Below are positions 13,626-38,785 of a DNA stretch of 64,000 nucleotides, one piece after another. Under the pieces are notes generated by a model. That model had not been told where the DNA came from and did no database searches. It saw only the letters and a list, made by a program, of their open reading frames with translations. Each line of letters begins with the position of its first letter. The first letter of the stretch is position 1. This DNA comes from Pontederia crassipes (Eukaryota > Streptophyta > Magnoliopsida > Commelinales > Pontederiaceae), in the NCBI GenBank assembly GCA_030549335.1, contig CM060184.1, positions 44,543,909 through 44,607,908 on the forward strand, in the 5' to 3' direction. Made by a program: the position numbers and the translations under genes.

Positions 13626-13651
13626 CGTCCTCCAGCGACGGGTGGCTCCTT

Positions 13652-13658: not shown

Positions 13659-13812
13659 TGGCATCTCTTCGGAGTCCGTTTTCCTATGAATGTGGTGGTG
13701 GGGGCCCATTTGCCAGCTTGGAATCACGATTCACGAGGCTGCTTCTGTGTTTTTTTCCTTAAAAAAATTAATTAGTCTATTTATCTCTTTAATTAAGCGG
13801 TGGAGAGACGCT

Positions 13813-13862
13813 CACGTGCGGGAGGACCCATGAGCTCGTGCGTCCTAACTGGCCGGCACGTG
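13813..13862. promoter_or_regulatory. Two G-boxes (CACGTG) upstream of SMT1
   Basis: CACGTG occurs at 13813-13818 and 13857-13862, about 190-235 bp upstream of the expected SMT1 start site. G-boxes bind bZIP and bHLH factors. Function here is inferred from position only. Confidence 0.5.
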
Positions 13863-14774: not shown

Positions 14775-14779
14775 CATTT

Positions 14780-16127
14780 TGTAATACCCAGATTTTTTAA
14801 AAAGGGTAAATTGGGTTTGACGGTTATATTAGGCCTAAAACTCTAATGTCCCCCTATTTAAAATCTCCAAGCCTCCTTATTAATCTCTTTCCTCTATCTA
14901 ATCTTCTAATAGTTAGGTTTTGAGGAAAAGAAATCTGAGGAGTAAGGAAGAATGGGAAGACGTAAAGAAAGAAAGATGAGGAGAACAAAAGAGGATTGAA
15001 AGATATGTAAAGGGGATTCAAACTCCTCTCTTTTCTCTCAATATTTGTATGATTGGATTGGAAGATCTAAGAACATCCTAATTTTTTATAGGAATTATGA
15101 TTAAAGGATTTTATGTGTCTCTCTAAATCTGATTTAATTGAATTGTATAGACATGATGGTTGGTTTTGTGTGTTACATAATTAAGAGTTACATCTTAATT
15201 TGCCCAAATTCATAATTGTCCTTGCAATAATTATTTAGATAGATTTTACTTATCCAAGAATTATAAATAATATATGGATGAAAAATTCTCGAAGAAAATT
15301 AGTTTCATTCGATTTGAAGGTGTATAAAAATAGTTATGTGAACTGCTATTATGCTATCTCAAGTGATAGCGAAACAAAATTGTAAAATGTGTCATAATTT
15401 GGAAATACTGAAATAGAATTTGAAATTTATTTGCAGGTTCGATATTGGTTATATCTTTCTATGAAATTTGGAATCATATGAAAACAATATGTATAAAATA
15501 AGTTATTAATATTTTAGTGTCAACCATCAAAATACTATACAAAAAATAGATTTTGATATTTGTATAAATTGCTGTGATTAAACCACAAAAATATAAAACT
15601 CATAGATTTTAAATGTGATTACTATTAAAGTATAGTTTGCAAGAAAATTGCAATTAATCAGAAAGAATATCTATGTATTAAGTTATAATTTTTTTATTGA
15701 TGATACGTCAGAACTGCCAAAAAGGGAAAGTGGTCTATTATATTATTTATGTCAACTTTGTTATGTCAATACTATGCATTATCTTTAAATGTTTATGCAT
15801 TCAAGATGAAATGATCTGTGGATGTATAATATCTTTTGATGTTTTGTAAATTTAATATGTTATGTTATTTATGAAATATTGATTATTGTATTGATTATCA
15901 TCTAGATACACAAATTGCATGGACTATTACTAATGACCTTATAATATGAATCGATGATATGCACACATTTTATGAATATGATATGGACTTATTCACATGT
16001 TTAATGATTTTTCGCAATAGTATATGTCTATCATTTTATTTATGATGATGTTATGACGAACGGACTAGCACTATCGAAATGACCTAATAGTCCTCTGATT
16101 TTTAGGGTGAATTTTCGGAGTGTTACA
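14780..16127 (+). repeat. 5' LTR of gypsy 1
   Basis: It begins TGTAATACCCAG and ends GGAGTGTTACA, directly followed by the primer binding site. It is about 1.35 kb, shorter than the reassembled 3' LTR (about 2.17 kb). The 3' LTR has extra segments at about 24060-24555 and 38430-38660 that are missing here, so this copy has probably suffered deletions. Identity over shared parts looks like roughly 85% by eye. Confidence 0.9.
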
Positions 16128-19100
16128 GTTGGTATCACAGCATGCTTAAGTCCTATATTAAGTATGTCATAAAATTGTTAAGTGTATAAGTCCATGTACA
16201 ACCGTGATAAGCAGTCATTCAAAGTAAAGAGTATGTGTGTTTTGTGTCATATATATAAAAGCAAAGGTAAAAGCATTGAGTAAGAGTAGGAGTTTTAAAA
16301 CTAAAGATTAATATAACATATGATATACGAACAATTTTTTCTTATTTTCAAAATTAAAAATGGGAGAGAGAGTAAGACAATTAATTTCTTAAATAAAAAT
16401 ATAAAAATATTTAATTCGAGTAAGAGTAGGAGGTTTAAAACTAAAGATTAATATAACATATGATGTATGAACAATTTTTTCTTATATTTGAAATTAAAAA
16501 TGAGAGAGAAAGAGTAATACAATTAATTGAAATTAATTGCTTAAAAATAAATATAAAAATATTTAATTTGAGAAAGAGTAGGACTTTTAAAACTAATAAT
16601 AAATATAACTTATGATATACGAAAAAATTTAAATATAAAAGATAAAACACCCTACAAAATTAGTTAAATAAGATAAATTAATATATTACGAGTTTTGTTA
16701 TTTTCGAAATTAAAAAATTAAAATAAGGATTTCAATTAGTTAGGTAAAGTGGCAATGGCGAGGCATGGCGGCAACTAATTATAATTATAATTTATAATAT
16801 AATAATAGGTATCCTATATAGACCTAAATTAATCCTAATCATAATATTATCACGTATATATCCTAATACTACATTACATATCATAAAACTAATCCTCCTC
16901 TAATCTTCTATAAAATCGTATATAATAAATATATCCTATCCTAATTTTATAATTTCGTCCCAAAAAAGCCAATTAAATATGTGTGCAACGGGTTAATACC
17001 AATTAGGAGTTATAAAAAAATCATTATATGACAATATACATCTGAAAAATAACATATATATATAACCTATTATTATTTTTGAAAATAAATAATATCATAT
17101 AATAAAAGTGTGTTGATTAAATCTAAAAGGTAAAACTAAATATATATAACGTATTATTATTTTCGGAAATTTTGGAAAAAAGGAATATCATACAATAAAA
17201 GTTTGTTGCTTAAATCTAAAAATTAAAACTAATTAATTCGAAGTAGGCTTCTTAGTTTGTTATATAGGTTAACAAAAATAAAATATGATTAAATTTATTA
17301 GCATAATTTGATAACAAGCAGAGTTCTTTCGTTATGATTAATGAAATAATATTTTGTTTCTAAAAGATAATGTAAGTTAATAATGGTTTATTTTTAAAAT
17401 ATAATTTGTCATTTTCGGAATTAAAAATGATTTAAAATAAATAATTTAATTTGATTGATTAATATTTCCTTTTTATCCATTTGAGTATGATTAAAATAAA
17501 TAATGTTTTCATAATAAAAGATAATGTGCAAGTAAATAATCATTTCTTTTTAAAAGGCAATTTGTTATTTTCGAATTAAAAAATCATTTAAAATAGAAAT
17601 ATCAATTTAATTCAAATTAAGATTAATCTTTTCTATTTATAAATTTGAGAATGATTAGAATAAATAATCTTCCCTTTCTCAAAGGCAATGAACAAAATAT
17701 AATAAAAATAAATAATATTTTCTTTCTAAAAGAGACAATGTACAAATGTATTAAAAATAATAATTCATTTTAAATTATTTTATAATATTTTGTTATACAA
17801 GTTAACAAAAATAAATATGATTAAATTCATTAGCATAATTTGATAACTAGTAGATTTCTTGCATTATCATTAAAATAAGTAACATTTTGTTTCTAAAAGA
17901 TAATGTACAAGTATACCATGACACATTTTTAAAAAATAATTTGTCATATTCGGAATTAAAAATTATTTAAAACAAATAGTTCAATGTGAGTGAAATTAAA
18001 ATTTCTTTTTCATCCATTTGAGTATGATTAAAATAAATAATGTTTTCTTTGTAAATGAAAATGTGCAGGTATAGTTTCTTTTTAAAAGATAATTTATTAT
18101 TTTTGAAAAAATAATTTAAAATGATATTTCAATCCGAGTCAGATTAAGATTAATATTTACTTTTTTTTAATCAATTTGAGTGTGATTGAAATAAATGTTC
18201 TTCCCTTTCTAAAATGTAATGCATAAATATAATAAAATAAATAATGTCCTTTTTAAAAGGTGTTGTAGAGGTGTCATAAAACAAATAATATGTCATTTTT
18301 AAAAGATAAATGTATTATTTTCGAAATAAAAAACTGAAAGTAATGTTTTCAATTGAGTATAAATAATTTTAAATAAAGAAATCAATTTCAGTCAAATAAA
18401 TATTAATCTTTCTTATATTTTCTTTTTAAAATATAAATGAAAATTATATAATTTTAGAAAATAAAGGTGATCTTATAGTGATTTTTTATATAAGGTAAAA
18501 AAAATAAAAGTAGGCTAAATTTATTAGCACAATTTAGTTAGAAGCAATTATTTTAGTATGACTACAATAAATAAATTTTCATTTATAAAAGATAATGTAT
18601 ATGTAAATAATATTTACTTTGTGAAACATAATTTATTATTTTTGATTAAAAATAATTTAAATAAAGAAAATATTCTTTGATTAAATAAATAATTTTAATA
18701 ATAATTTCTTTAATGTGTTGTGCTTGGATTGATCAATGTGACATGCCGTCGTATTGTGTTGACAAGGTTCGTTTTAAAAATAAGAGGTGTCATGTTGAAT
18801 TGACATTATGCCAACCCGACATAGTTTGTGCACAATCCAACAAAGCTAGCTCGGTGGGGTCAGATGGTTTGTTTTTAATTTTCTTGCTCAAATTTTATTT
18901 CCATTAATAATAAATCAAAATTAAGAATAAACTATAATAAGTGATATAAATAATAATATATAATATTAGGATTATTAGATATATAAAAATTTTATATAAT
19001 ATATAAATAAATATTTAAATATGTAATACGAAATAGAAAAATAAAAGAAAATATGTTTGGGCTGGGTCCGAGGAATTTCGTGTGGGTCACATGCTTGACC

Positions 19101-19700
19101 GGCAGCATGTACAAAATTTCTTCTCTTAAGCAATGAATTCAATTGTGTCCAAAATAATTTAAACTAAAGAATTCAATTTGATTTGAAAATAATTAATTAT
19201 TTAAGAAAAAAGTAATTTAATTAGAAGTCGGGGTCTTGGTAATTTTAAATTGAATTTTAAGCTTTTCAAAATGGAATAACCTATTTATGACATTTAAATA
19301 CTAATAAATTAGTTTTGATAATTATTATAAGTTATAATATTTCAATTATATATTATATATTTTTATAATATATGTCGTCTATGCAATGTACGGGATTTAG
19401 GACTGGTGTTGGTTAATTACTGTTATGTTAAGGATGGAAGCAAAAAGTTTTCCAATGGGAATGCTAATGTTTACGTATAAATTTGATAGTATTGTCAAAT
19501 TGACTTAGGACAATATGTAACATGAGATGTGAATCTCATTGTAAGTTGTAAGGATGATGGACATATGATAAGAAATGGATTGCCCAAAATTGTATACATG
19601 ATTGTTCATAACAATTGAACAAGTTTTCATAATCCAAAGATTGAAATGACTAAGAAAATTATAGTGAAATTCAATTTTCGTACAAGCAAATAAAAAGTTC
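16128..19700 (+). other. AT-rich internal region of gypsy 1, no recognisable gag
   Basis: Between the primer site and the protease relic lies 3.5 kb of very AT-rich DNA with no gag or zinc knuckle that I can find. It carries degenerate internal repeats: a roughly 135-bp unit around GAGTAAGAGTAGGAG(T/G)TTTAAAA near 16290 and 16420, and a scattered unit around AAAGATAATGT(A/G)CAAGTA...TTTGTTATTTTCG between 17370 and 18660. Confidence 0.6.
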
Positions 19701-19713
19701 ACTGACTTTTAAA

Positions 19714-22700
19714 ATGAAAAGTATGAAATGTCAGCTAGAAATAGCAACACCTCTAGGGAGGGTCTCCACCAGGCAATACCTCCCAGAGACATCAGTAATG
19801 ATAGAGGGAGATAATTACTCGACTGACCTCATAGTGCTACCTATGATGGACTATGATGTCATACTTTGCATGGATTGGTGTCATACTATGATGCCTACAT
19901 GATGTGTTGACAAAGAAAGGTCATGATCAATAAGAAGGATGACAATTTTTGTAACCTTTTACAGAATTCCATCCAAGAAGAAGAAGATGATGATCTCTAG
20001 TCAAGGCAACCAAGATACTGAACAAGGGTTGTTGAGAATTCTTGGCGAGTGTACTCAAGAGTGATTTCCAACCTAAGCCATTATAAGAACTTGAAGAGGT
20101 GAAGGACTTTCTAGATGTATTTCCCAAAGAGCTCCCGAAATTACCACCGAAAAGGGAGATTGATTTTCATATAGAGTTGATACCATGGACGACCCCGATC
20201 CCAAATCTACCTACAAGATGGCACCATCAGAGATGAAAGAACTGAAGGCACAACTGCAGGAACTACTGGGCATAGTTTTCATTAGGCCAAGCGTGTCCCC
20301 ATGGGGTGCACATATCCTATTCGTGAAGAAGAACGATGGATCACTGAGACTATGTATTGACTATATGATGCTCAACAAAGTGACCATCAAGAATAAAGAC
20401 TCACTACCCAGAATAGATGATCTTTTTTATCAGTTATCTTCTGTATCAGTTTTCTCAAAGATTGACTTGAGAAGTGGATAGCATCAGCTCAGAGTGGTCG
20501 ATGAAGACATAGCTAAGATGGTCTTCAGATCAAGATATGGCCATTATGAATTTTTAGTTATGTCTTTTAGATTGACAAATGCTCCTGCAACGTTTATTAA
20601 TTTGATGAATAGGATACTCAAGCCTCACTTGGATAGGTTTGTGATAGTATTTGTGAATGACATTTTAGTATATTCATCAAGTCCTGAGGAACACCAGAAA
20701 CATCTATAGATTGTTCTGGAGACTTTGCGGCAATATCAACTGTATGTAAAATTCTTCAAGTGTGAATTTTGGTTGGAACAAGTGATATTTTTTGGTCATA
20801 GTGTTTCAAAGGAAGGCATTTCTGTGCACCTAGCAAAGTTTGAAGTAGTTATTAACTGGGAAAAAATAGTAATTGAAATCAGAAGTTTTTTTGGATTGAC
20901 CGGTTAAGGTTCATCTAAGATTTCTTCAAGATTGCTTCTCCAATGATCAAACTGACTTGGAAATGAGAGAAGATCAACTGGAACAGAAGTGCGAAGAAAG
21001 CTTCTACTTCTGCACCAGTGCTGACAATTCCCAATGAAGTTGGAGGGTACACGGTATACAGTGATGCTAGTTGTACTGAATTGGAATGTGTACTGATGCA
21101 GCATGGAAGAGTGGTTGCATATGCTTCAAGGCAACTTAAAACTCAAGAAAAGAATTATCATACTCATGATTTGGATCTAGCAGCTGTGGTGTTTGCTTTG
21201 AAGATATGGCACCACTGTCCGTATGGAGAGAAATTTGAAGTCTGCACTGATCACAAGAGTCTCAAGTATATGTTCTCTCAAAAGGAACTCAACATGAAAC
21301 AAAAAAGATAGTTAGAGTTTCTGAAAGATTATGAGTTTGGTATTCTTTACCATTCAAGAAAGGCCAACTCAGTGGCAGATGCTCTAAGTAGAAAATATGA
21401 AGGTTGACTTGTTTGAAGGTCTACAAGTGGACTCTAATTGAAGGAAGCACACAAAGAAAGCTGATGACGCATTGTGTCATTCGGCTTGAACTAGTGGCAA
21501 AAATTGCACAAGCATAGAAGGGAAATCTAGAGTATAAGGAGCTGAAAGTTCTATGTGAAAAAGAACACCTAGACTATAAGATTGATGAAGATGGAACCAT
21601 CAGGTTCTAAGACAGACTGTGGGTACCTGATGATAAAGAGCTTAAGGAGGAAATTCTGATTGAGTGCCACAAGTTTGCTATTCACCCAAGATGTTCAAGG
21701 ACCTTTAGAGAACATTTTGCTGGAAGGATATGAGAAGAGAGGTGGCGGAATTTGTTTGTAAGTGCTTAGTCCGCCAAGAGATCAAGGTTGAGCATCAGAA
21801 GCTACCGGGTTTACTGAACCCATTACCCATACCTTAGTGAAAGTGGAAGGACATCCCAATGGACTTCATTGTAGGTCTCCCGAGGACACATAAAGGACAT
21901 GATGCTATTTGGATTATCGTGGACAGATTATTCAAGTCAGCTCACTTTTTACCATATAGTGTGAGTATAATTGTATGTAGATGAGATTATTTGATTACAT
22001 GGAATTCATTATCCATTGTATTGGATAGTTATCCGAGGTTCACAGCAAGATTCTAGAAAGGATTACAGCATGCTTTTGGCATAAGTCTGCATTATAGCAC
22101 TGCTTTTCACCATTAGAGTAATGGGCAAAGTGAAAGGATAATTCAGACTCTCGAGGACATGTAGATTGGCAAGGCAGCTGGGATGATCACCTCGCCTTTT
22201 CCGAGTTTGCTTACAACAACAACTATCATTCCTCCATAAAATTGCATTATTTGAAGTTCTGTATGAAAGACCTTGTAGGTCTCCCACATGTTAGAGTGCG
22301 GTTGGTGAAGAAAGACTACCAGGATCTGAACTAGTAGAAAAGTATGAAGAGAAAATTGCTCTGATCAAGGAAAGAATGAAGACAGCTCTGAGCCGTTAGA
22401 AAAGTTATGTAGACAAGTTGAGGACCATGTACTATTAAAGGTATCTCCTACCAAAGGAGTCATGAGATTCACAAAAAAGGCAAATTGACTCCTAGATATA
22501 TATCGATCCATTTGAGATTCTCGAGATGGAGAGAGAAGGAGCATACGAATTAACATTGCCTCCTTCATATGTCAGAATCTATATGTGTCAATGTTTCGCA
22601 AGTGCACATATAACATCTCCTATGTAATGGTGATTGAAGAGCCAATCATTCAAGAAGACCTCACTTATGAGGAGTATCCTATAGAGATACTAGAATATGG

Positions 22701-22809
22701 TGAGCATCGACTAAGAAACAAAGTGGTGAAGATTGCATGGAAGAACCACAATAGAACGACATGGAAACTAGAAGAAGAAATGAAAAAAACAATTTTCAAG
22801 ACCATTTGA
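19714..22809 (+). pseudogene. Gypsy 1 pol remnant (protease, RT, RNase H, integrase, chromodomain-like)
   Basis: The remnant is read in pieces. 19714-19902 is the end of the protease (ADLIVLP-like text, then MDYDVILCMDW). 20080-20907 is RT with [26 protein letters not shown] and FVNDILVYS. 21018-21400 is RNase H with YSDAS and the end DALSRK. About 21640-22560 is integrase, including PMDFIVGLP and DAIWIIVDR. 22585-22809 is a chromodomain-like tail (RNKVVKIAWKNHNRTTWKLEEEM). In-frame stops occur, for example after FSKIDLRSG (20479-20481) and after EEHQKHL (20707-20709). The catalytic pair normally FVDD reads FVND, with AAT at 20656-20658. It cannot make an active polyprotein. Confidence 0.9.
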
Positions 22810-22861
22810 GAAGTGTTCTTAGTATGTTTAAAATTCGAGGACGAATTTTCATTTAAGGAGA

Positions 22862-22914
22862 GTTGGGGGGGGGGGGGGGGGGGTAGGGGGGGGGGGGGGG
22901 TGGGGGTGGAAGGA
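22862..22914 (+). other. Polypurine tract with poly-G expansion before the 3' LTR
   Basis: Directly upstream of the 3' LTR start (TGTAGTACTCC at 22915) there are runs of 19 G (22865-22883), 15 G (22886-22900) and 5 G, broken by TA and T. This is the place of the polypurine tract that primes plus-strand DNA synthesis. Its length is far beyond a normal tract. Confidence 0.8.
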
Positions 22915-24730
22915 TGTAGTACTCCAGATTTTTGAAAAAGGGTAAATTGAGCTTGATGGTTATATTGGGCGCAAAACCCTAATTTCCCCTATTTAAAATT
23001 CCCAAGCCTCCTTGTTAATCTCTTTTCTTTACCTAATCTTTTGACGGTTAGGACTTGAGAAAAAGAGATATGAGGTGCACGGAAGAAGAGGAAGAAAGAG
23101 GAGAAGATCAAACGAGGATTGAAAGGTATGTAAAAGGGATCCGAACTACTTTTCCCTCTCAATGTTTGTATGATTGGATTGGAAGATTCAAGAACACCCT
23201 AGTTCTTGGTAGGAATTGTGATTCAGGGATTTTATGTGTCTCTCTAAATCTGATTTGCTTTTCATGCTTAGAATTGTATAGATATGATGGTTAGGTTTGT
23301 GTGTTACATGATTAAGGATTACATCTTAATCTGCCAAAATTTGTGACTATCTTTGCAATAATTATTTGGATAGATTTTACTTATCCAAAAATTACAATAA
23401 TATATGGATGGAAAGCTCTCAAAGTCTACTTTTATGAAAATTGGTTTCATTCAATTTAAAGTGTACAAAAATAGTTATGATCAGAAAAATGAACTGCTAT
23501 CATGTTGTCTCGGGTGATAGCGGAACAAAATTGTAAAATATGTCATAATTCAGAAATAATCTGTTTGAAATTTATTTTTAGGTTAGAGATTGGTGATATC
23601 TTTCTGTAAAATTTGGAATCATTTGAAAATAATATGTATATAATAAGTTATTAATATTTTAGTGTCGGCTACCAAAATACTATATAGAAAATAGATTTTG
23701 ATACTTGTATGAATTTTTGAGATTAAACGAGAAAAAGATAAAATTCACAAGTTTTACATGCGATTAATATTAAAGATAATTTGCTAGAAAATTGAAATTA
23801 ATTAGAAAGAATTGCATTATCTTTTATTGATGATATGCCAGAACTGTCAAAAAGGAAAAGTGGCCTATTATATTATTTATGTCAACTTTGTTATGTCAAT
23901 ACTATGCATTATCTTTAAATGTTTATGCATACAAGATGAAATGATTTGTGGATGTATAATATCTCCTGATGTTTTGTACATTTAATATGTGATGCTATTT
24001 ATGAAATATTGTTTGTTGTATTGATTATCACCTAGATACATGAATTGCATGAACAATTATAAGTAGGTTAAAATTTGAAGACTATGCAACTTAAATTATT
24101 TGATGATTGTGATAATAATGAACCTAATTGAACAATATTATTATTTGTCATCTCTCAAACTGATGATTGAAAATACTGTCTCTTGCTCCATTGTGTTAGA
24201 ATTTCCTTCGAAAAATTACTGTGCCATGCACCTTGGAGTTAGCATTTCTTGAAGGAGTATCTGTATCTTACCGACAACGATATATATACCACTCACCTTC
24301 AGATGACGGAGCCTCGACTCTAAGGCCTAGCTAGCCTACTGGAGGACAAGGACATGATTCTTCAATTACTGATAAGATCAAAGACTGTCTGATTGACCGA
24401 ACTGAAAGAATTGATGACTACGAAAGTGAGATCCAATGGGTTATGAAAAAATCTTGAGGATATTACTGAAGTAAGGTAATGACAAGTGATAGTCACTTGG
24501 GATGCTTACTACTACTGGTTGACTATTACATGGCTGGCTGTTACATTACTGTTACTGATGACCTTATGATATGAATTAATGATATGTACATTTTATGAAT
24601 ATGACATGGCATGCATGTTTCTTTTTATTATAAAACTGTCATATATATATATATATATATGTATGTCATGTAGTATCCTATTTAGGATGTATTTCACTGC
24701 ATTGATCTTTACATATTCTAATTGGGAAAC
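22915..24730 (+). repeat. 3' LTR of gypsy 1, first part (split by CACTA)
   Basis: It matches the 5' LTR from TGTAGTACTCCAGATTTTTG onward. The match continues after the CACTA insert at 38429-38780 (shared text ACGACGGACTAGCACTA-like and CGAAATGACCTAAT). Confidence 0.9.
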
Positions 24731-25240
24731 CACTACAAGAAAATCGACGAATAGCGACCCAATGAAGGGGGCGCTATTGCGGCTCTATTGAGTCTTTGGA
24801 ATATATAGCGTCTCTTTAGCGTTTACATAGCGCCGCCAAAATGCGAGGCCGATAATCAATGACTAATAGCGTCACAATAGAGTCAAAGAAGAGGGAGACA
24901 CTACTAGCAAAAATAGTAGACGCTATCTTGACGTTAAGATGACACATAATGTCTCGTTACGAGCAATTGACAGGCGTCTCTAACGTGACGCTAACGTGGC
25001 GTAGAATGGCGATGCGCTACTCCGGCGCGCAAGGGATGCTACATTTATGCATTAGTTGACGTGATTTTGATGTTACTGTGAGGTCAACATCATGTCCGCT
25101 GGGTCGCCAAGGTGACGCTAAGGTGATGCTTCACATGTCGACGCTACTCGAACGCTCAAGAGACGTGAAAAATCATATATTTAATGTAGCGTCGACTATG
25201 CATGCGACGCTAGTGTAACGCTATAGAGGCACTAATATTA
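24731..25240. repeat. CACTA left subterminal repeat zone
   Basis: Many copies of GACGCT/AGCGTC and close variants in both orientations, such as ATAGCGTC, GACGCTA and GGCGCTAT. Such clusters are the binding sites of the TNPA-type protein in En/Spm elements. Confidence 0.8.
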
Positions 25241-25439
25241 TATTTTTTTGCCCCATTACAGTCATATTTTCTTCCCTTCCCACACCGTACAATTTTATAA
25301 TGCATATAAATACATTGATATCCATCGCAAACATAATATCAAAGAGGAATCATTACAGGCAATATGCATAGTAATAGATTTAACTAACAAACTATAACTA
25401 CTATACGTATATCTCATAACAAGTCTATAAGTAATAAAA

Positions 25440-27720
25440 GTATAGTTGCAAAAGTTTTTATCCTAAGTTTGGGACTTGTTGTCATCATTCCGGACGTTAG
25501 ATCCCGACGTGCTCGATCTTTGGTCTCACGGGGATTGATTCTGCAAGGGGATCAATCCCTGAATCGCCTGCAATAATGGAGCCAACTGTTGCGACACCTG
25601 CTACGATATCTATTGCAATAGATGCGTCACATCAGGTGCAAAGGATGAGCTCGGAGTAGATGGGCCGCCTGCATATCCTCCGCTCCTCGTAGGTACTTAA
25701 GCAGCTATGCCAAGGCCATGCAGGTATCCTCCTCGTGTCGTGTCGGCCACCTCCTCCCAAATAGTAGGGTCCTCTACGAAATAGAAAAATTATACAATCA
25801 TATAAACATTATAGATTATATAAATTATATAACATAAAAAACACATAAATTAAAAATGTGAATCGCTTTTGAAAAATGTTAACTGGTGGATGAGTACTCC
25901 GATCATCTCCGTACTTTTCAGTCATCTTCACATTATACTCATCTTAAAAAATTTAAACATTGCGCATTTAAAAAGTAGTTTGCACTAATATCAGCAACCA
26001 AGTGAACATGTGATGAGACTTACTAGAAGCCTACGAGCAGTGTGCGTGACCAAGTCGTTCATCTTTCGGCACTTTTGCGTGGCCTCGTAGACCAAGTGAA
26101 AATCCATAGGACCGCCTTGTTTCTCCTCCTGCATTAAAATTTCAAATTTTATAAAATAAGTATAAGTTAAAAGTTTAATTAATTAAATTTTTATGTAAAT
26201 TACCATGCGCCATTGATGCTCTTCAAATCGCATCCCCGCCTATGTGGATGTGAGCCTCGGGCTTCGAAAATCTGTTAACTCTTGCCCTTTTTGACTCTCT
26301 TTGCCATTGTTCATCCGTTCTTTATGAACATCAAATACTTAGACTTTGAAAAATTATAACTTTAATAAAAATAATTTAAATGTAAACATACTTATTACTT
26401 CTAACATAAGAACTCCCAAACCGAGTGTCAATACGTCTTGGGCATCTTTGTATGCCCTATTCTAAAGTGAGGCCGGTGGACGTGATGATCTTGCGAAACT
26501 TATATAATCAATTTTGGAGACATTTCGCAGCCACCTCCTCAAAAGCTCTTCGGATCGTCCCCAAACTAAGATCCGGATGAAACTGATTTGTCTCCTAAAT
26601 AATACTATAAAATTTAGTAATTTAAAATAATATAAAAAAATTATGTAACCAAAAAAGAAGATCGTACTGTAAAGGCCCGAAAGATATCATCACGCACTTG
26701 AATTGGGACATCTTTTCACAATCCTACCCCTTCCAGCAAGTGGGAAAAAAAATAAGAGCATTGAAATCCCGCATGGTACTAGCAGGCGTGAAAGTGATCA
26801 TGCAAATTATAAAGAAGAATTAATTTTCAATAATAAGCTAAACTATAATAAAATTTCTATAACTTATTTAACTTACGGCTGAACAATATTATTCACGATG
26901 ACCACCCCATTATCATATAATCCCTCTTCATCTATCGAAGATGAATTATCACCCAGTATAGCTGGGGTAGGTTGAAAATGTCCGACATCATCTACGGGCC
27001 CTAGTACAAAATAAATCATTAGTGTCATACCAAATTAAACTAGTGATAATTGATATATGTACAATCAAGTTCTCACCTCGAGTAATCTCTATCGTTGTAC
27101 GATCCATGATAGTCCGCTCGTTAGAATGTACAAGCCGGGTGCTTGTGTTATCGTCGGCGAAGCAACTAACATTATTAAAAAATAATTAACATAATTAATT
27201 GAGAAATATAATTTCAATAATAATAAATATATCAGGTAAGATGTCGCTTACCAACACTAGAATGTGATGAAGCATCCGGTAATCTCGGCGGTGGCGTAGC
27301 AGCTGTCATCATAAAATACTACTTAAAATACTTGCATGTATTTAAATTTATAGAATATATAAAAGATAATCTAGTGTGACATGTCGATCATCGTTGTGCG
27401 ATCGAGACATCCCGACTATGTGCCTCGTCGATGGTGGAGCAATTGTCACAAAAATAAAATAATTAAAAAATTGTATCACCTACTATGTGACACGTACCTG
27501 GAGTGATACGTGGAGATGACCCACCAATGGATCGCCTACTATATGCCCCGTCGGCGGAGGAGCAACTAACATTATAAAAAAAATGAATGTAACTATTATA
27601 AGCAATTATATATAAGCAACTGACAATAAATATAATACTTGGTGGTCGTGATGACTCACTCATTTGGAGTGAACGCCTAGAAGAGCGGGATGACCTAGAA
27701 GCTCGACCTCTAGTAACCAT
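25440..27720 (-). pseudogene. Second CACTA gene (TNPA-like / plant transposase_24-like), multi-exon relic
   Basis: It probably starts at 27720 with MVTRGRASRSSRSSRRSLQM, a basic Ser/Arg-rich N-terminus. A donor follows near 27644. Further exon-like pieces include SSADGAYSRRSIGGSSPR ending at a GTACGT donor (about 27500). Near 26400-26460 the minus strand reads IDTRFGSSYVRS, a hallmark of the second protein of plant En/Spm elements. Exon borders are uncertain and no full frame was assembled. Confidence 0.6.
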
Positions 27721-27844
27721 GACTGAAAAAAAACTAACAAACTTGTGTTATTATTAGTAACCATATATAATTGAAAAAAGTAACAAGCTTGTGTCATTAG
27801 AAGAACTACAGGATTCATTCGCTTGTTTCGTATTCTGATTCATT

Positions 27845-30746
27845 TTAATCATCTTCATCGTCATCGCTATAATCTTGTTTCGAGTCATCGTCAATGAAAT
27901 TGTCAAAGTTCACTTCTAAGAGGTCATTTGAATTGAACTCTTCCATTGGCTCAGCGTCATCGACTGATTGACTATTCTCAACTCCATCGGTTACATCAAT
28001 CATCTCATTCACTCGATTTTCTTGATAGTAATCATCTACGGGCACATCGCTATGTACGGATGATATTTCATTATCATATACCATTGTTTTTGCTAAGAAT
28101 AGTCTACTTCTCATTTTGCATGACGCCCACCATTCATGGTTCTTTTCGATGGATACTTGTGTAATACACTTGTTGCGCTTGTCCCGTCAATACGAATGGA
28201 CCGTATGGTTGAAGTCTCGATCGAGGGTTAATATCCACTAATTTAAACTTTTGATCGATCCGAACTCCTTTCTCTGGATCGAACAAATGATATTTTAGCA
28301 CCATGACTTTGTCCACTTTTTTAAATAAGATAATTTTATGATGTCTAAAATAAATTATCTTACTTGAGATACGACGTCACCTCGTTACAGTTTGCAAGGA
28401 CATAATTCTCAATGGCACTGAGATCTCTGTCACTCAAGATAACTTTCGTCCTATACCAAGAAGTCGGCATGGGTACTTGAAGATGAATAAAGTATTCATG
28501 TTAACTTCTCTTTCACCATTGTCATCATTTCTTGAAACTTTGGTGTGTCATGATTGTATATGTGGCTCAAAGTACTTTGAAATGAAGTTTGACACCTCAA
28601 TGAAATATGCTTTATATATAGAGCATTCAATCTTCGCCTTATTCTTCGTCTTCCTTTTCAAATATAGCATGCATCTTTTGAAAAGATACATCCACCGATA
28701 TTGAACTGGACTCGCAACTTCCGTTTCATATGAAAGATATACAATCAAGTGCTTCATCACATCAAAAAAGGTGGAAATATCTTCTCAGTCTTGCACACGA
28801 TAATCACAATAGAAGCCTCTAACTAAGAGATGTCTTCTTCTCGAACGATGGATGTACAAAGCCCTTTAAAGAACATAGATAACTTTGTTAAAGCTTCCCA
28901 GATGGACTGACAAAAGTTCTTTATAGCCAATTGAAAGCAGTCTTTGCATAAAAATATGACAATCATGACTCTTCATCCCATGTATCTTGGCATTTTTCAA
29001 GGTAAAACAACGATAAATGTTTGATACATATCCGTCGGGAAATTTCAATTACTTGACCCATTCAAAAACCACTTTTCTTTGATCATTGCTCAAGACATAA
29101 GTAGCTTTTGGACTTTTGAATTTACTATTTTGAATATGAATGATATCTAGCTCTGGTCTTCTGCATATAACTTTCATGTCTTCGCGTGCATGTATACTAT
29201 CTTTTGTTCTTCCTTTAACATCCATAATAGTGTTGAAGATGTTGTCAAATACGTTCTTCTCCACATGCATGACGTTCAAGTCATGACGTACCAAGTTTAA
29301 AGATCAATAAGGCAACTCTATAAAAATACTTATTTTCTCCCAATTATGTTCACTTCCAAACCCAATTTTCATGTAAGCATCGACCTTCAATCCGAATGAA
29401 ACTTCATTAAGCTTGTTTACTTGCTCTAGCAATTCTTGTCCCGTCAAACGACTTGGAGGCAATGTGTTCTCGGTTGTATTCTTTTTAAATGAGTTTCGAT
29501 CATGATGCATCAAATTATCTAATGACAAAAACATCCTATGACAATCAAACCAGCAAAGTTTCTTACAGTTATTCAAATAAAATGATTTTGTATTCTTTCC
29601 ACATATGGGACAAGCAAGTTTATCTTTTGTGCTCCAATCATTCAACATTCCATATGCTGGAAAAGCAATTATGGTCCACATTAATGCAACTCTCATAATG
29701 AAATTTTACTTCTTAGATTTGTCATAGGTAATCACGCCATCCTCCCACAACATGTTGAGTTCATCAATCAAAGGTCTTAAGTAAACATTTAAACTTTTAC
29801 TAGGAGAATGAGAACTTGGGATCATACAAATAAGCAATATGTTCTCTCGTCTCATGCACATGTGTAATGGAATTTTGATCATCACGTGCCCCTTCTTTGT
29901 GTCACCTCATAATTGATGCAGTTTTCTCATAAAGAAATAGTCGTTGCCATCTTAGAAATATGGGAAAGTATCTTAATACTGCATTTGCCATATTTTCTTC
30001 GAACTATGAAAGTTCTTTCTTGTATCTGGGCTCGTCACAAATAGAATAATTCATAGGTGAGTTGTTTTTCTTGTAATACAACATACAATAATTGAGGCAT
30101 GCATCAATCTTCTGATATTCTAACCCTAAATCTTTCATCAATCTTTTGCACTTGTAAAAAATTCTCAGTAATTTCTCTAAAGCTGAAGCATACTCTTAAT
30201 AATGACAATCACTCGGTCAAAACAATTTTTGCTCATATTAAATTCTAATTTCAAGTTCATTAGTTATGCTACTGCAGAAAGTGTAGTTTGCTTCACGCAT
30301 CCATCCCATAAAGGTTCGTTTGCTTCTTTGAGAATATTATAAAATTTAGAAGCCAAAGAATCCGGGTCTTCTTCAATCAATATTTCATCAACATTTCTCC
30401 TAACATTGTATCTCGTATCATGTCCCTGTACAAATTGCTTGACTCGTCCACATTGGTATCTACATTAGTTGTCTATTTAGCCCATCGTTCTTCGCCATAA
30501 AAGAACCAATTTGTGTATGTCAATAAGAAACCGTTGTAGTATAAATTCTTCTGCACATCATATCTTACTTTCCACTGATAAAATTTGCACTTCCTACATG
30601 GACATAATTTCTCCATATGAAGAAGCAACACCTTCATTTTGATATGCCACATTAATAAATTCATCAACACCATCCTTAGATTCTTCTGTTATAATGTCAC
30701 GTTTATCCTTCCAACGATGAATCCAATTATGATCTGGCTTTGCCAT
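27845..30746 (-). pseudogene. TNP2-type CACTA transposase relic
   Basis: The start is probably ATG at 30744-30746 (MAKPDHNWIHRWKDKRDI), in a transposase-associated N-terminal domain that continues as CRKCKFYQ and WFFYGEERW in another frame (about 30473-30600). The central core at 29304-29696 reads WTIIAFPAYGMLNDWSTKDK and CPICGKNTKSFYL, then WFDCHR. 29049-29294 reads MHVEKNVFDNIFNTI and RPEL. The C-terminal domain at 28134-28316 reads DQKFKLVDINP and GQAQQVYY, and the end is acidic (27845-28114). Several frameshifts and stops separate these pieces. In intact elements this protein cuts the CACTA ends. Confidence 0.9.
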
Positions 30747-30799
30747 TGCTATAACAGACAACATTAAGCCATATGTCAATAAATTCTTATACTCGAAAC

Positions 30800-31320
30800 A
30801 TGTGATTTTGAAGTTATGAAGTCCAAAATCATATGTTTCAAGTACTTGATCGTCGTTACTAATCGATGAATTATCATATTATAGTCTCTTTTTTTTTCAA
30901 TGTTCTCATTTTAATTAACAGTAATACTCATCCACATTCATCTTAACCAAAATGAGAACATGATAGAAAAAGACAAAAAATTGATAATAATTGATTAGTA
31001 TTTGATTTCAAGTTGAATCTCATCGAATATAGATTTGATGCATAATTCAGAATAATATAGTTAATTTGTTCATTTATTCTTTGAGTCATGATGTTCATCT
31101 AATTGGAGGCATAAATTTGATAAACAATTCATCTATTTTTCAAGTCACGATATTCATATAGTTGAAAGCAGAGTTTCAAGTTAACATAATTAAGAACATA
31201 TATTCATATATTCATCTAAATTAAGGCATAATTTAGAAACAATTTAGTTTGTTCATATATTCATCTAAATTAAGGCATAATTAAGAACATGACCATATTC
31301 AATTTCAACTTAACAAAAAT
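30800..31320. other. AT-rich leader upstream of the CACTA transposase
   Basis: No coding potential seen. The motif GAATCTCATCGAATATAG...CATAATTCAGAA and related short phrases (AATTAAGGCATAATT) recur a few times between 31010 and 31300. Confidence 0.5.
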
Positions 31321-31339
31321 CAATTAACAAAAAGGGACT

Positions 31340-32335
31340 TACTGTCTGGCAGAGAAGGGCGGCGGAGGAGCGGTGGCGGACTAGGGTGGCGGAGGAAGAC
31401 AGTGTCTAGTGGAGGAGCGACAACGGGCGAGGGTGGCGCAACGTTCATCTGAGGGCAATGGAAGGCGAAGGAGGGTGCGTCCGACGGAGGAGCGGCCCAA
31501 GGTGATGGAGGGGCAACTGATGAGGGCGTCTGACTACGATAGTGGAGGAGTGGCCGAAGAGGACAGCGTCTGGCAGTGGAGCGGCCGAGGAGGGCAGCGA
31601 ACGAGGGTGGTGTCCGACTGTGGAGGAGGGTGGGGTCCGACGGAGGCAGTGGTGAAGGTGGAAGAGGGCGGTGTCCGACTGTGAGCGGAGGAGCAACAAT
31701 GGGGCAGCGGACGAGGGCGGCGAAGGAGGGCCGCATCCCGCAGAGAGAGCGGCGATCGACGGGCGAGGGTTGGTCGAGGTCGGAGGAGAAGGCAATCTGG
31801 GTCGGGGTCAGAGGAGTCGGCGGGCTAAGTCGGGGTCGGAGGAGAAGGCCGGAGGTGGGGTTGCGATTGGAGCAGTTGGCGGCGGTCGGCGGGCGAGGTC
31901 AGGGTCATAGAGGAGAAGGTGGCAAGGTCGATCGAGTCGGTGGCGGTCGGCGGGCGGGGTCAGGATCACAGAGGAGAAGGTGGAAAGGTCGATCGAGTGG
32001 CAGGCGAGGGTGGGGTCGGGGTCGAAGGAGGAGGCCAGAAGCGGGGTTCGGGGTCGGAGGAGTCGGCGGGCTGGGTCGAGGTCAGAGGAGGAGACCGGAG
32101 GCAGGGTCGGGGTCGGAGCAGTCGACGACGGTCGGCGGGTAGGGTTGGGGTCACAGAGGAGAAGGCAGCAGGGTCGATCGGGTTGGTGACGATCGGCGGG
32201 CGAGAGTGGGTTCGTGGCCGGAGGCGAGGTCGGGGTCGAAGCATTCGATGACAGTCGATGGGCAGGGTCGGGTCATAGAGGAGAAGGCGATAGGGTCGGT
32301 TGAGTCGGCGGTGGCCGGAGGCAGGGTCAGGCGGT
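31340..32335. repeat. GC/G-rich low-complexity block inside the CACTA element
   Basis: About 1 kb of G-rich plus strand built from GGCGG, GGAGGAG and GGTCGG(A/C)GG words. In 31780-32330 an irregular tandem phrase GGTCGG(C)GGGCGAGGTCGGGGTC...AGAGGAGAAGG repeats. Overlapping long open frames on both strands (up to 188 codons) come from composition. It lies just upstream of the transposase start on the minus strand, so it could be its promoter or 5' leader. Confidence 0.75.
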
Positions 32336-32394
32336 AAAAATAGTAAAAGTAAAAAGTAAAGGAAGCAGTTAGGGATTTAAGGTAAGTTTTTAGT

Positions 32395-33113
32395 GTTGCG
32401 TTGTAATGCGACGCTACATAGACGCCACAATGGCACAAACAAATAAATAAAAACAAATAGCTAAAGTGACGCCAAATACTATTCCTGATTTTCTTATTGG
32501 CTTCTATTTAAATAGGTTTATATTATTTTGTTCATATTATATTATACGTTTATATTCCAATAGGTTTTGTATATTTTAATTATATATATATATATATATA
32601 TATGATGTGTGTATGTATGTTAGGTCTATATATTTAAGATAGCGTCTCATCACATTGTGCCCCTTCCCAATCGTTTTGTTCCCTTCCCACACTATAAAAA
32701 TATGGAATGCATATATAATTACTCATGTATATGTATATAAAATTATAAGTCTATATGTATATGTGTATATGACAAAGTGTATATGTATATCTAATATATA
32801 TGTATGTATATGTCTATGTGTGCGAGATTAAGTCACAACAACATGGCGTCCCAAAGGCTTAGCATCCCAAAGTCACGACGCCAAAGAGATGCCAATAGTG
32901 CCTCTCTAGCATCGACTACCTTGGCAGCTCTATTGTGGCATTTCGTCGACGCTATCGAGTCTCCACGGTGGCACTAAAATGGGATATTTTGTAACAAATC
33001 ATTTCACTTAATTCAACCATCATAATTCCATAATTAAGAATATAAAAATAATATATGTATAATTAAGATATGATATATATTGTATGCATAAGTAACATAT
33101 ATAATATAGGTAA
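32395..33113. repeat. CACTA right subterminal zone, inner part
   Basis: AGCGTC/GACGC(T/C) words reappear at 32395-32480, 32638-32650 and 32840-32990. This is the inner part of the right subterminal zone, pushed away from its end by the Copia-type insertion. A (TA)n run lies at 32580-32603. Confidence 0.7.
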
Positions 33114-34294
33114 TGTTGGAATAAAGTTTTAATGACATATAAAATTATATTTTGATGATACAAACTTCGAAAGACTAAAGTTAAAATGCTAAAAAAGTTT
33201 AAAGAAAAAAGGATAACTTTATGCACTAACTTTGATTAAATAATTGACTATGATTTTATTAGATTCTGGATTAATGATAAATATCAAAATTGTAGAAAAT
33301 CCTGATAGCTGTAATAGAATCAAAGATTGTCTAATTTGGATAATCGTGCAAAAATGTTATGCTCAAAATAGTGCAGGTCGGTCAACTTGCCGGTGGACAA
33401 AATAAAAACCGGTCGAGACAACACCGGTCGACTGATCTAGTATACCGATCGACCGATCAATGCATGAGCTGCTCCCTTCCATGATGAGACTATACCGGTT
33501 GATGCCGAGATGATACCGGTAGATGTACCGATCGACCGACCAGCTACGGTCAGTGAAGAAAATAAGCGCAACGGTCATATAGACCAGTCGATCGGTGCAT
33601 TAATGCGGTCCCTGGTCAAATGATCAGTAACGGTCAATTTTGAAGGATAAATTTGTGGAATAATTTCTAGATGAATTTTTCACATACTAGAGCCTATAAA
33701 AAGAGTGCCAAAATCAGAAGCAAAAGCATCCATCCAAGCCTTGAAGAAAACTTCAAGTTTTTAAAAGAAGACCTTTTCCTTGAAGTTTTCATTTTAAGTT
33801 TTCTCTTTTTTCTCTCTTCTCCTCTTGTGAGCTTAGCAATGTAAAAGAGAGAAATATTTTATTTAGAAAAATATTGAGAGAGTTTATGTGTAAAAGAGGT
33901 TCTAAATCTTACCTCTTGAGCGAGAGAAAAGATTAGCTTCATTGACAGAGAGGTGAGCCTTACCTCTCAAAGCAGAGAAAAGGCGGTGGTGTAAAGGGTT
34001 TCTATTCCTTTCCCCATTTGGAATACAGGAAGAGTTCTAGTGGAATCTCTGACAGTCTCGAGATCGAGAAGTCGGAGCAGGGACGTAGGCCAAGGTGTGA
34101 CCGAACCTCGTCAACAACCACCGCATGCATTGTGATTGAATTCCCCCTCTCTCTTCCTCTTATATTATGCGATGTGATTTGATTTGTGTTAATTATTGAA
34201 TCAGTTTTAAGTTTCCGCGATGATTTTTGTGAAATCGATACTTTGATTTTTAAACATCAATTCACCCCCTCTTGGTGTCCTTTGGGATCCAACA
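33114..34294 (+). repeat. 5' LTR of the gag-only Copia element
   Basis: 1181 bp, TGTTGG...CCAACA, followed two bases later by a perfect initiator-methionine tRNA primer site. Confidence 0.93.
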
Positions 34295-34383
34295 ATTGGT
34301 ATCAGAGCGAGTTGCTCTTTTTTTAGATCTAATAATTTTAAGATTTAATCATCTTGTCTTAAGATTTAATCATCTTAAGAACT

Positions 34384-35300
34384 ATGCCATCAAGTGGATT
34401 TGATTTTGCCGAAGGACAATCAATTAATCATCCTCCCCTTTAAATGCATCAAATTTTGCATATTAAAAAATTAGAATTCAAGTATACATTTGTTCAATTG
34501 ATATTGACATGTGGGACATAGTTGAAAAATGTTATTATCTACATGAAAAATTGCCTACATATTCTGTCGAAAGAGAAAAACATTTTGAAAAAGTTGATTG
34601 GAAAGCCAAAAATATTTTTTATTGTACTTTGGATTCAACGAAATTTAATCGGATTTATAATTGTGAAAGTGCAATTGAGATTTGGAATAAACTCATCACT
34701 ACTTATGAAAGAACAGATAAAGTTAAAGAATTCAGATTAAATATTTTAAATTATGAATATGATTCTTTCAAAATGCATGATAATGAATCCATAAATGATA
34801 TGGTTGCACGATTTAGCGATATCTTGAATGGCTTAGCCTCCTTGGGCGAGCTAAAAATTAACCCTCAAAAAGTGAAAAAGTTTCTCAAATCTCTCTCATC
34901 CAAATGGCATACGAAGAAGACCGTGATTGAAGACAAAGATTTGAACAAATTGGATTTTAATGATCTTATTGATTCACTTCTAACCTATGAGATCTCAATC
35001 CAAGAAGATCAAGAACAAAAAGCTCCCAAGAAGACAACATTGTCATTGAAAGCAAATACAAAAGAAGAAGACTCAAGTGAAAAGGATGTGGACGAAAAGA
35101 AACTCACACTCTACAAAAGAAAACTAGATAAGTATCTCAAATTGGTAAAAAAGAAAGAGAAGAATGAGAAGCCAACAAGAAGATCATATAAACAACACAA
35201 ATAAGAGACATCTCAGAAAGAGAAAAAGAAAAAATATGAAGAGTCAAGTGAAACAGGTGATTCATTAAGCTCTTCTAATGATGAAACATACTATGCTTAA
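34384..35300 (+). pseudogene. Copia-type Gag (UBN2-like), broken
   Basis: The likely start is ATG at 34384 (MPSSGFDFAEGQSINHPPL), typical of Copia Gag, but a stop follows at once and the frame shifts. The main frame runs 34509-35204 (231 codons). It holds the alpha-helical capsid-like core with IWNKLITTYERTDKVKEFRL, INDMVARFSDILNGLASLGE and KFLKSLSSKW, then a Lys-rich tail. A stop at 35202-35204 interrupts it, and the same frame reads on to about 35300. The zinc knuckle follows at about 35720. Gag would package the element RNA into particles. Confidence 0.85.
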
Positions 35301-35718
35301 TGGCACACGACGTTGAGATAATTTTCACCCCTTTAAATTCAAATTATGACTCATCAAACTTTTCTGAAAAAATCTTTCTTTAAATGTAAATAAAGAACTT
35401 TCCTCCTTGTAAAAAGATATTTCTCACTTAAAGAAGAAAATGAGAAATTACTACATGAGATTGAAAACTTAAAAGAACAAAAGGATACTAGTTTTATGGA
35501 AAATGAAAAACTAAAAAATGAAATTGATACTTCGAAAATTACACATGCTTGTGAAATTGTAAAACTAGCATGTTCTTTAGAAAAAGTAAAGAAGGAAAAT
35601 ACTTTTTTGAAAAATTTACAAAATAAAACTATTTCTCATGTAAGGAAAAACAATCTTAGGAAATAATTTGAAAATGAAAATTCTTATTGGAAATCTAATC
35701 ATTCCTTTAATAGAAAAT

Positions 35719-35870
35719 CACATCTCAAATGTTTTACATATGGCTTTTATGGTCATTACACATATAAATGCAAAATAAGAAAATCAACTCAACATGACAT
35801 GATTTGGATTCCGAAAGGAACATTTTCTAACAAAATAGGATCCAAAGAAATTTGGGTATCAAAGGATACA
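35719..35870 (+). pseudogene. Decayed CCHC zinc knuckle and end of the Copia Gag
   Basis: The frame reads HLKCFTYGFYGHYTYKC. Compared with CX2CX4HX4C, the second Cys is Tyr. It then reads MIWIPKGTFSNK and EIWVSKDT, wording found just before the protease/integrase of Copia polyproteins. The element then passes into non-coding sequence, showing where pol was lost. Confidence 0.75.
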
Positions 35871-36548
35871 TAATTATCTTTTCAGGTGTGCCTCACATCC
35901 AAAGCAAATGACAAGTGGAATTGAAATTGTGAAGGTATGAAGATTATGATAAAAGTATCATTAAATATACTCTTGCAATCTTTTTCTTGAATGTTAAGTC
36001 TATTTTCAAAAATTTCAAATTCATTATTTCTTTGTAAGAAAATTGGTCATACTGAAGGGGCAGCATGTTAAAATCTTTCAACTTTATTTTGACATATATA
36101 TCATTGTTGTATCAAAGTTTTATGCAATATTTTGATTCTTAATACATCTTTTTGAAACTTTTGGCTTTCATAACCTATAAATCAATTTTATTTCAATTTT
36201 AAAATGGCCATAAATTTAGGGAAACCTATTTTACTCTTTATGATGTAATACTTTATATGACAAATGGGAAAATAAATTTTTCTAAGAGACAGGTGGAGAA
36301 TTTCATGTGGTTTCTTATGTCCTTCATTTACAAACTATTTTTTTATGAAATAAAAGGGGAGAAATATAGGAGAAATATGATATGAATATACTTTATATGA
36401 ATTAGTACCTAACAATGAATACTTATGTGAATATTTACCATTGTAAGGAAAACTAAGTGTTAGGGGGAGTAAAATTGATTTTATAACTTTTTCGCAACTT
36501 ATATATTTTTCATATTTCTCAGTTTGTCTTCATAAAAAAAGGGGAGAT
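35871..36548 (+). other. Non-coding 3' part of the gag-only Copia element
   Basis: AT-rich sequence ending in a polypurine tract. I see no RT, integrase or RNase H motif here on either strand. Confidence 0.7.
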
Positions 36549-37730
36549 TATTGGCGCAAAGTTTTAATGACATATAAAATTATATTTTGATGATACAAAT
36601 ATCGAAAGAGTAAAGTCAAAATGCTAAAAATGTTTAAGGAAAAATGGATAACTTTATGCACTAACTTTGATTAAATAATTGATTATGATTTTATTAGATT
36701 CTGAATGAATGATAAATATCAAAGTTGTAGAGAATCATGCTATCTATCCATAGAATTAAAGATTATCTAATTTGGAAAACATTATGCTCAAAATGAAAGC
36801 CGGTCGACCTGGGACAACCTGCCGGTCGATAGAATGAAAGTCGATCGAGACAACACCGGACGACCGATCCAATATACCGGTCGATCAATGCATGAGCTGC
36901 TTTGTTCCATGATGAGACTATACCGGTCGACGTTGAGATGATACTGGTTGATGTACCGGTCGACTAACCAGCTGCGGTTAGTGAAGAAAATAAGCGCAAC
37001 GGTCATATAGACTAGTCGACCAGTCCATTAATGCGGTCGACCGATTTCTTGGTTAAATGAACAATAACGGTTAATTTTGAAGGAGAAATTTTTGGAATAA
37101 TTTTTGAATGAATTTTTCACATACTAGAGCTTATAAAAGGAGTGCCAAAGCCAGAAGCAAGAGCATCCATCCAAACATTGAAGAAAAACTTCAAGTTATC
37201 AAAAGAAGACATTTTTCTTAAAGTTTTCATTTTAAATTTTCTCTTCTTTCTCTCTGCTCCTCTTGTGAGCTTAGCATTGTAAAAGAGAGAAACATTTTAT
37301 TTAGAAAAATACTGAGAGAGCTCCTATATAAAAGAGGTTCTAAATTTACCTCTTGAGCGAGAAAAAAAAATAGTTTCATTAGAGGAGAGGTGAGCCTTAT
37401 CTCTCAAAGTGGAGAAAAGATGGTAGTGTAAAGGGCTTTTCTTCCTTTTCCCATTTGGAACAAAGGAAGAGTTTTAGTGGAATCTTCGATGATCTCGAGG
37501 TCAAAAAGTTGGAACAGAGACGTAGGCCAAGGTGTGGTCGAACTTCGTCAACAACCACCACGTGCATTGTGATTGAATTCCCTCTCTCTCTCCCTCTTAT
37601 ATTGTGTGATGTGATTTGATTTGTGTTGATTGTTGAATCAATTTTAAGTTTTCACAATGATTTTCGTGAAATCGATACTTTGATTTTTAAACACCAATTC
37701 ACCCCCTCTTGGTGCCTTTTGGTTCCAACA
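36549..37730 (+). repeat. 3' LTR of the gag-only Copia element
   Basis: A full-length partner of the 5' LTR. The first dinucleotide is TA instead of TG, a mutation in the terminus that integrase needs. There are many point differences from the 5' LTR, so insertion is not very recent. Confidence 0.93.
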
Positions 37731-37735
37731 GGTAA

Positions 37736-38425
37736 CAAATATATATTTAGGAACACACATATGATAGGAATGTATAAGTACATAATTTATGTTGAAGGTA
37801 CATATAATAATATATATTAAAGTATATGGGGTTGCGTCAAAATAGATAACATATATATAGTTATATAAATATAGATAGCATATAGTTAATCTATTGCTTA
37901 ATTAACATATATGTTCCTCAAACATATATAGTTATGAGACGCCAAGTAGTGTTAAAATAGTGCAAATTAAGTGTTGTATGTGTTACATGTGTAGGCAACT
38001 ATAGGAATATATTTTTATATTGGCGTCTACATAGCGTCACAATAGTTGACGCAAGTAGCGTCACATACCTCGGCGCCTAAACCGTGCAACAATACGGCGC
38101 CCATATCGATTCCTCGCTATCGACAAAGCATCTCAAACTATGCGATGCTACATTCACGTCGAACGGTGTCAACGCTACAACATCGCTAAATTCTATCACG
38201 TGTTTTCACTCCATCGCGCGCAATAATAGCGGCTAATTGGCATCTCTATGGTGCCTCCATTAGTGCATATTTCTCAAAACGCAATGAAAATGCTATTGGG
38301 AGGCAAGTAGCATCTCTTTGTTGTGACTCAACTGAGACACTATATCGTCGCTCGTGACGTCGACTTAGCGTCACTAGCGATGGAGACGCTATTTTGCGTC
38401 GCTAATCGCCAATTTTCTTATAGTG
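37736..38425. repeat. CACTA right subterminal zone, outer part
   Basis: Dense AGCGTC/GACGCT-type words from about 38020 to 38410, ending at the terminal TAGTG (38421-38425). Confidence 0.8.
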
Positions 38426-38428
38426 AAC

Positions 38429-38780
38429 CCTGCACCTGGATCTGTGCAAGTAACTGAAATGCTTGGATGGATGGCTGAACAACTGATGATGACGAAGTTG
38501 CACATGGCATAGAAATAATCAGTCATGAGTCTCTAGAGTTTTTATTTAGAAGAGTCTTATGGAATAATGAATTCTTCCTAGTTTTATGACATGATGATGA
38601 AACTACTTTTATTTAAGTCTTCTGTTGAATTATAGATGGTTTTATTTTATTCTCATGTTTAATGATTTCCCAAATAGTATGTCTATCATTTTATTATGAT
38701 GATGTTATGACGCACGGACTAGCACTACCGAAATGACCTAATTGCTCTCTAGCTTTTAGGGTGGATTTTCATAGTATACA
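38429..38780 (+). repeat. 3' LTR of gypsy 1, second part
   Basis: This resumes the LTR after the CACTA insertion. 38660-38780 matches 16005-16127 of the 5' LTR almost base for base, and is followed by the CATTT duplication. Confidence 0.88.
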
Positions 38781-38785
38781 CATTT

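Follow-up and report, generated by a model that had tools for sequence, protein, structure and literature searches.

The 64-kb window analyzed here (C2:44543909-44607908 of the Pontederia crassipes assembly, which comprises 1.13 Gb in 43 contigs) contains three transposable elements, one inside another. A Ty3/gypsy element (positions 14780-38780 of the window, flanked by CATTT/CATTT) holds a CACTA DNA transposon (24731-38425, AAC/AAC) in its 3' long terminal repeat (LTR), and the CACTA element in turn holds a gag-only Copia element (33114-37730, GGTAA/GGTAA). The matching target duplications of all three sit precisely at the element termini: CATTT at 14775-14779 and 38781-38785, AAC at 24728-24730 and 38426-38428, and GGTAA at 33109-33113 and 37731-37735. 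Computed at the same separations within the window, the chance of agreement is 0.0021 for the CATTT 5-mer, 0.019 for the AAC 3-mer, and 0.0020 for the GGTAA 5-mer. A preliminary description of this DNA had reported a three-level nest with a matching duplication at each level, and all six of its borders read exactly as it gave them. Three ordinary successive transpositions, of gypsy, then CACTA, and then Copia, almost certainly account for the arrangement.

Structure of the three elements

The gypsy element lies on the plus strand. Its 5' LTR (14780-16127), which reads TGTAATAC...GTTACA, lacks two segments, here called X1 and X2, and is followed by a degenerate internal region (16128-22914) with pol remnants from 19654 onward. 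The 3' LTR is split by CACTA into a left part (22915-24730), with AAC at its end, and a right part (38429-38780), of which 38429-38644 is the remainder of X2. Its LTR pair starts with TG, ends with CA, and is flanked by a 5-bp target duplication, as in Ty3/gypsy elements. Pieces of the aspartyl protease (RVP_2; 19654-19902, E = 3.6e-13), reverse transcriptase (RVT_1; 20482-20709, E = 2.4e-09), and RNase H (RT_RNaseH; 20967-21311, E = 2.4e-25) occur in that order within the internal region and assign the element to Ty3/gypsy. No match to integrase was found in the gypsy pieces tested by profile, and pol is too broken for long open reading frames (ORFs). The stretch 22516-22809 resembles the tail of Tekay-type chromoviruses, in which a chromodomain follows the integrase, and has no Pfam match at E ≤ 0.1. 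No gag is seen in the internal region, including the AT-rich stretch 16300-19500. This very AT-rich stretch (GC content of 17 to 30% by kilobase) contains tandem repeats and occupies the expected place of the gypsy gag. Just before the 3' LTR, in the place of the polypurine tract, there is a G-rich run of ~42 bases (22865-22913). The primer site after the 5' LTRs of both gypsy and Copia is presumably of the initiator-methionine tRNA type. In the window itself, neither a tRNA gene nor an Rfam family reaching the gathering score is present.

The CACTA element is 9.07 kb long without Copia and one GGTAA. It is reversed within gypsy, as its transposase pieces are on the minus strand. These include a DUF4216 piece (28134-28376, E = 7.2e-10), two Transposase_21 pieces in 29304-29906 (29304-29705 and 29706-29906, E = 9.6e-23 and 3.8e-16), and a piece of the transposase-associated domain (Transpos_assoc, PF13963; 30473-30688, E = 1.9e-09). 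The terminal inverted repeats match at 27 of 32 bases (84.4%). The motif TAGCG/CGCTA occurs at 53 positions in the window, 14 of them in 24752-25219 and 10 in 38032-38400, next to the two ends of the element. Thus, it combines CACTA terminal inverted repeats, the 3-bp duplication, subterminal repeats, and a tnp2-type transposase (Transposase_21, in two pieces), all of which are features of the CACTA (En/Spm) transposons. It differs from them in being degenerate and in carrying a GC-rich tandem array at ~31300-32400. A sister CACTA element on contig C21 has a corresponding interval of less than half this length.

The Copia element, also on the plus strand, consists of a 5' LTR (33114-34294; TGTTGG...CCAACA), a gag ORF (Retrotran_gag_2, PF14223; 34509-35204, E = 4.9e-24), the rest of the internal region (35205-36548), and a 3' LTR (36549-37730) that starts with TATTGG and ends with CCAACA. 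From gag to the 3' LTR there are 1344 bp in all, and no match to pol was found in the three post-gag pieces tested. This combination of LTRs with a 5-bp target duplication, a gag, and no pol between gag and the 3' LTR places the element with TR-GAG. It also shares with TR-GAG the presence of many copies and what we take to be a tRNA-type primer site. The passages on TR-GAG in PMC10552921, citing Chaparro et al. 2015, describe non-autonomous gag-only LTR elements; set against those passages, nothing notable is different here, the gag being of the Copia type (PF14223).

The same build recurs in the genome. When 40 of 4046 candidates for the post-gag stretch were scored and the window and its copy on contig C24 were excluded, 28 of the 38 other places matched 35205-36548 uninterrupted and over almost its whole length (query start ≤11, end ≥1324), at 78 to 82% identity. 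One of these 28 lies on C24 and probably corresponds to a place on C2. Since the post-gag stretch is uninterrupted at so many places, the gag-only structure is most likely the build of the family and not a private deletion of this copy, as judged on the post-gag stretch of these places only. A place on C20 (L052), compared for the gag region of another Copia copy, matched over 73 bp only.

Empty sites and the order of insertion

The preliminary description proposed that, with CACTA excised, the 3' LTR joined across 24730/38429 should align with the 5' LTR of the same element. There is no such alignment, the 5' LTR being without ~330 bp at that place. It matches the 3' LTR from 22915 to ~24055, then at ~24557-24612, and then at ~38645-38780, and is short of ~500 bp (X1, 24056-24556) and ~330 bp (X2) that its relatives carry. 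X2 corresponds to 24613-24730 plus 38429-38644, with CACTA inside it. The landing of CACTA in a gypsy LTR is upheld instead by other copies of the family. A comparison that returned eight loci (four other LTR copies, the remainder being those of the window and of C24) shows all or most of X1 in 4 of the 4 copies. The left part of X2 is present in three of them and the right part in two; L003 on C21 runs into CACTA at X2, and an internal deletion interrupts L004. The joined flanks of CACTA were then used as a probe on 24 loci, two of which were the window and its counterpart on C24. In 20 of the 22 others (L007, L008, and L019 to L036), the LTR aligns through the joined flanks and the CACTA site is uninterrupted; of the remaining two, L004 has no match to the probe, and the alignment of L003 ends at the junction with CACTA. 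The 18 copies L019 to L036 were chosen by their match to 38429-38780, adjacency of the left flank being no criterion; of 947 candidates, 40 were scored, and these 18 rank highest once the window and C24 are set aside. These other copies show that CACTA inserted into the LTR itself and indicate that DNA was lost from the 5' LTR. The 5' LTR of the C21 copy of the locus retains most of X1, and therefore X1 was lost in the lineage of the window after the two locus copies split.

The absence of both X1 and X2 from the element's own 5' LTR could also be read to mean that they are two further insertions into the 3' LTR, that is, a fourth level of the nest, with CACTA having jumped into one of them. 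This is extremely improbable, given that both segments recur in other LTR copies, that X2 is uninterrupted at the CACTA site in so many of these, and that most of X1 is kept in the 5' LTR on C21. Judging from these alignments, a fourth level appears already refuted, unless the sampled copies, L019 to L036 having been picked via 38429-38780, all belong to one derived subfamily. Another alternative, that the nest is an assembly chimera, draws on the fact that misassembly is common in repeat-rich DNA. Its probability is close to nil: all six borders recur on contig C24, where they are identical letter for letter over 31 bases, and two recur on the diverged contig C21.

Three successive transpositions thus remain the preferred explanation, and a natural empty site exists for the second of the inner jumps as well. 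The sister CACTA element at C21:5918979-5925626 matches both sides of Copia, has a single GGTAA, and reads ...ATAATATAGGTAACAAAT... at this place. The order of gypsy, CACTA, and Copia given in the preliminary description therefore stands: the nesting supports it throughout, and the empty sites add support for the two inner jumps. The Ty3/gypsy element integrated, presumably through its integrase, with a 5-bp target duplication, and CACTA then landed in its 3' LTR, presumably by cut-and-paste, with a 3-bp duplication. The gag-only Copia, presumably borrowing the enzymes of another element, then integrated into CACTA with a 5-bp duplication. The 5' LTR of gypsy would later have lost its two internal segments by small deletions. 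All three elements decayed after insertion.

Several observations weigh against this succession. The CACTA duplication is only 3 bp long, with the chance of agreement of 0.019 given above. Among the 20 empty-site copies, several depart from the window sequence at AAC or immediately next to it, and L029 lacks a short segment directly to its right. The triplets flanking the sister CACTA element do not match each other (TTG vs CTC), and at 10 of the 38 other Copia places the match covers only part of the post-gag stretch. The segment 31081-41548 of the window is missing on C21, so that Copia, the right end of CACTA, and the right end of gypsy cannot be scored there. Finally, searches of the assembly with the left and right flanks found no empty site for gypsy. 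Full-length matches to the left-flank piece 12400-14250 number just three (on C2, C24, and C21), and each of these places carries gypsy; the other three matches span 121 to 123 bp each. With the right flank (38781-40800), for which 40 of 248 candidates were scored, matches to the first 765 bp were confined to C2 and C24. In the same search, the rest of this piece (39546-40800) matched on many contigs and represents the start of another dispersed repeat.

Second copies of the locus

Contig C24, which is 4.5 Mb long, carries the window from 1 to 64000 in collinear blocks (G000:C24:2945105-3009095) at 99.4 to 100% identity, and the match continues to the left of the window through the 8.9 kb compared. 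The C24 copy is probably either the second allele, retained in the assembly, or a duplicate of very recent origin. The copy on C21 (G000:C21:5933894-5978529) is diverged and collinear with much of window positions 1-63744. The 8.9 kb to the left of the window match C21 in parts only, and the 5.1 kb to its right, taken from C24, show no match to the C21 stretches compared. C21 shares the left borders of gypsy and of CACTA at the same bases, with the same CATTT before the same LTR start and the same AAC junction; therefore, both jumps predate the split of the locus copies.

Limits of the LTR clock

The divergence K of the gypsy LTR pair is 0.1506 ± 0.0121 over 1293 sites, and that of the Copia pair is 0.1425 ± 0.0123 over 1164 sites. 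According to the preliminary description, these two values bracket the CACTA jump, and so would date it. The point estimates are indeed in the expected order, which is kept without CpG sites (0.138 vs 0.127) and without CpG and CHG sites (0.122 vs 0.105). However, the difference is 0.008, with a bootstrap 95% interval of -0.025 to 0.043, and it is 0.017 (-0.013 to 0.047) with CpG and CHG sites removed. Gypsy has the larger value in 68% of the bootstraps, in 77% without CpG, and in 87% without CpG and CHG. The choice of alignment alone shifts the gypsy value as much as the two elements differ: over the first 1108 sites, K is 0.150, 0.153, or 0.158, according to the set of sequences aligned together. 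Moreover, K is 0.125 for the LTR pair that this gypsy has on C21. A bracket that dates the CACTA jump is therefore very unlikely, and this part of the preliminary description finds no support (0.151 ± 0.012 vs 0.143 ± 0.012). It had also named inner LTRs older than the outer ones as a sign against the nest, and the Copia LTRs are not measurably older than those of gypsy.

The split of the C2 and C21 loci falls in the same range, its distance in the same DNA being 0.133 for gypsy and 0.120 for CACTA. Since the LTR and split distances overlap, the insertion of gypsy, the CACTA jump, the insertion of Copia, and the locus split lie in one band that these distances do not separate. Only the nesting and the shared borders order them; the Copia insertion may precede or follow the split. 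A comparison of the four LTRs (5' and 3' of the window and of C21), aimed at the order of gypsy insertion and locus split, gives 15 sites for the expected grouping versus 12 and 9 for the two alternatives, a margin too small to decide. Contrary to simple expectation, the two 5' LTRs are farther apart (0.147) than the 5' LTR of the window and the 3' LTR of C21 (0.135).

Such a limit of the LTR clock is already known, because inner LTRs are more diverged than outer ones in 1042 (25%) of the 4126 nested pairs from fifteen species reported in PMC7251063. At the present locus, LTR divergence near a K of 0.15 over ~1200 sites cannot separate events less than ~0.03 apart. It thus offers a worked example in which the order is proven by borders and empty sites and the clock is too coarse for the middle jump.

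Two other gypsy copies are about equally distant, at 0.133 and 0.158 from the 3' LTR and 0.173 and 0.200 from the 5' LTR, values that would fit insertion during a burst of the gypsy family. Gene conversion between the gypsy LTRs was considered in view of one 66-base identical run, a length reached in 14 of 2000 shuffles, and was rejected. Two other pairs of LTR copies have identical runs, of 49 and 45 bases, that end at roughly this position, so that a slow-evolving stretch is as likely an explanation. The longest identical run of the Copia LTR pair is 42 bases (reached in 761 of 2000 shuffles).

Divergence of element and flanking DNA

The diverged second copy allows substitution in the elements to be compared with that in their flanks at the same place. 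In this comparison of C2 with C21, the collinear blocks were picked by hand, and bins with ≤150 aligned sites are not shown. The left flank has a K of 0.034 (8784 sites) and the right flank a K of 0.033 (5260 sites). K is 0.044 in 14001-14500 and rises to 0.142 at 15001-15500. Within gypsy and CACTA, bins range from 0.095 to 0.168, with overall values of 0.133 for gypsy (4558 sites) and 0.120 for CACTA (5551 sites). The DNA of the two elements is thus 3.5 to 4 times as diverged as the flanking DNA, and K steps up abruptly at the gypsy border. Over the C21 copy as a whole, K is ~0.033 in the flanks and ~0.08 to 0.13 in element DNA. Relative to the left flank, site counts in gypsy indicate transitions ~4.5 times and transversions ~2.3 times as frequent. 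Methylated cytosines are the usual explanation for raised transitions. Raised K is also found outside the nest, in 1-1000 (0.083 to 0.099), at 41.5-44.3 kb (0.082), and at 45-50.8 kb (0.0985).

Part of the step may come from constraint on the flanks. If such constraint is not the cause, the locus might serve as a built-in calibration of the LTR clock, with silenced element DNA mutating ~3.5 to 4 times faster than its neighbors, a reading that we regard as possible and rather doubtful. Were it true, LTR dates derived from gene-based rates would be several-fold too old.

Comparison with other nests and other repeats in the window

The nest shares with the nested LTR retrotransposons of plants, as presented in PMC6911290 and PMC7251063, a topology in which the inner element is the younger, target duplications at the borders, and the use of LTR divergence as a clock. 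It differs from them in that the middle level is a DNA transposon. According to the abstract of PMC6911290, which covers 1491 nested pairs in 12 plant genomes, nesting LTR elements do not commonly insert into LTRs. At the present locus, the LTR has received a CACTA element, a class that this abstract does not mention. In a plant-type genome of 1.13 Gb such a nest is routine, and the architecture of the window is otherwise that of an ordinary plant genome.

Two further repeats are seen in the window. In 9866-11571, a unit of ~850 bp is duplicated in tandem, the copies being 99.5% identical. The segment 50830-55588 has a further LTR pair (86% identity over a 795-base alignment) and contains pieces of a Ty3-type capsid and protease on the minus strand.

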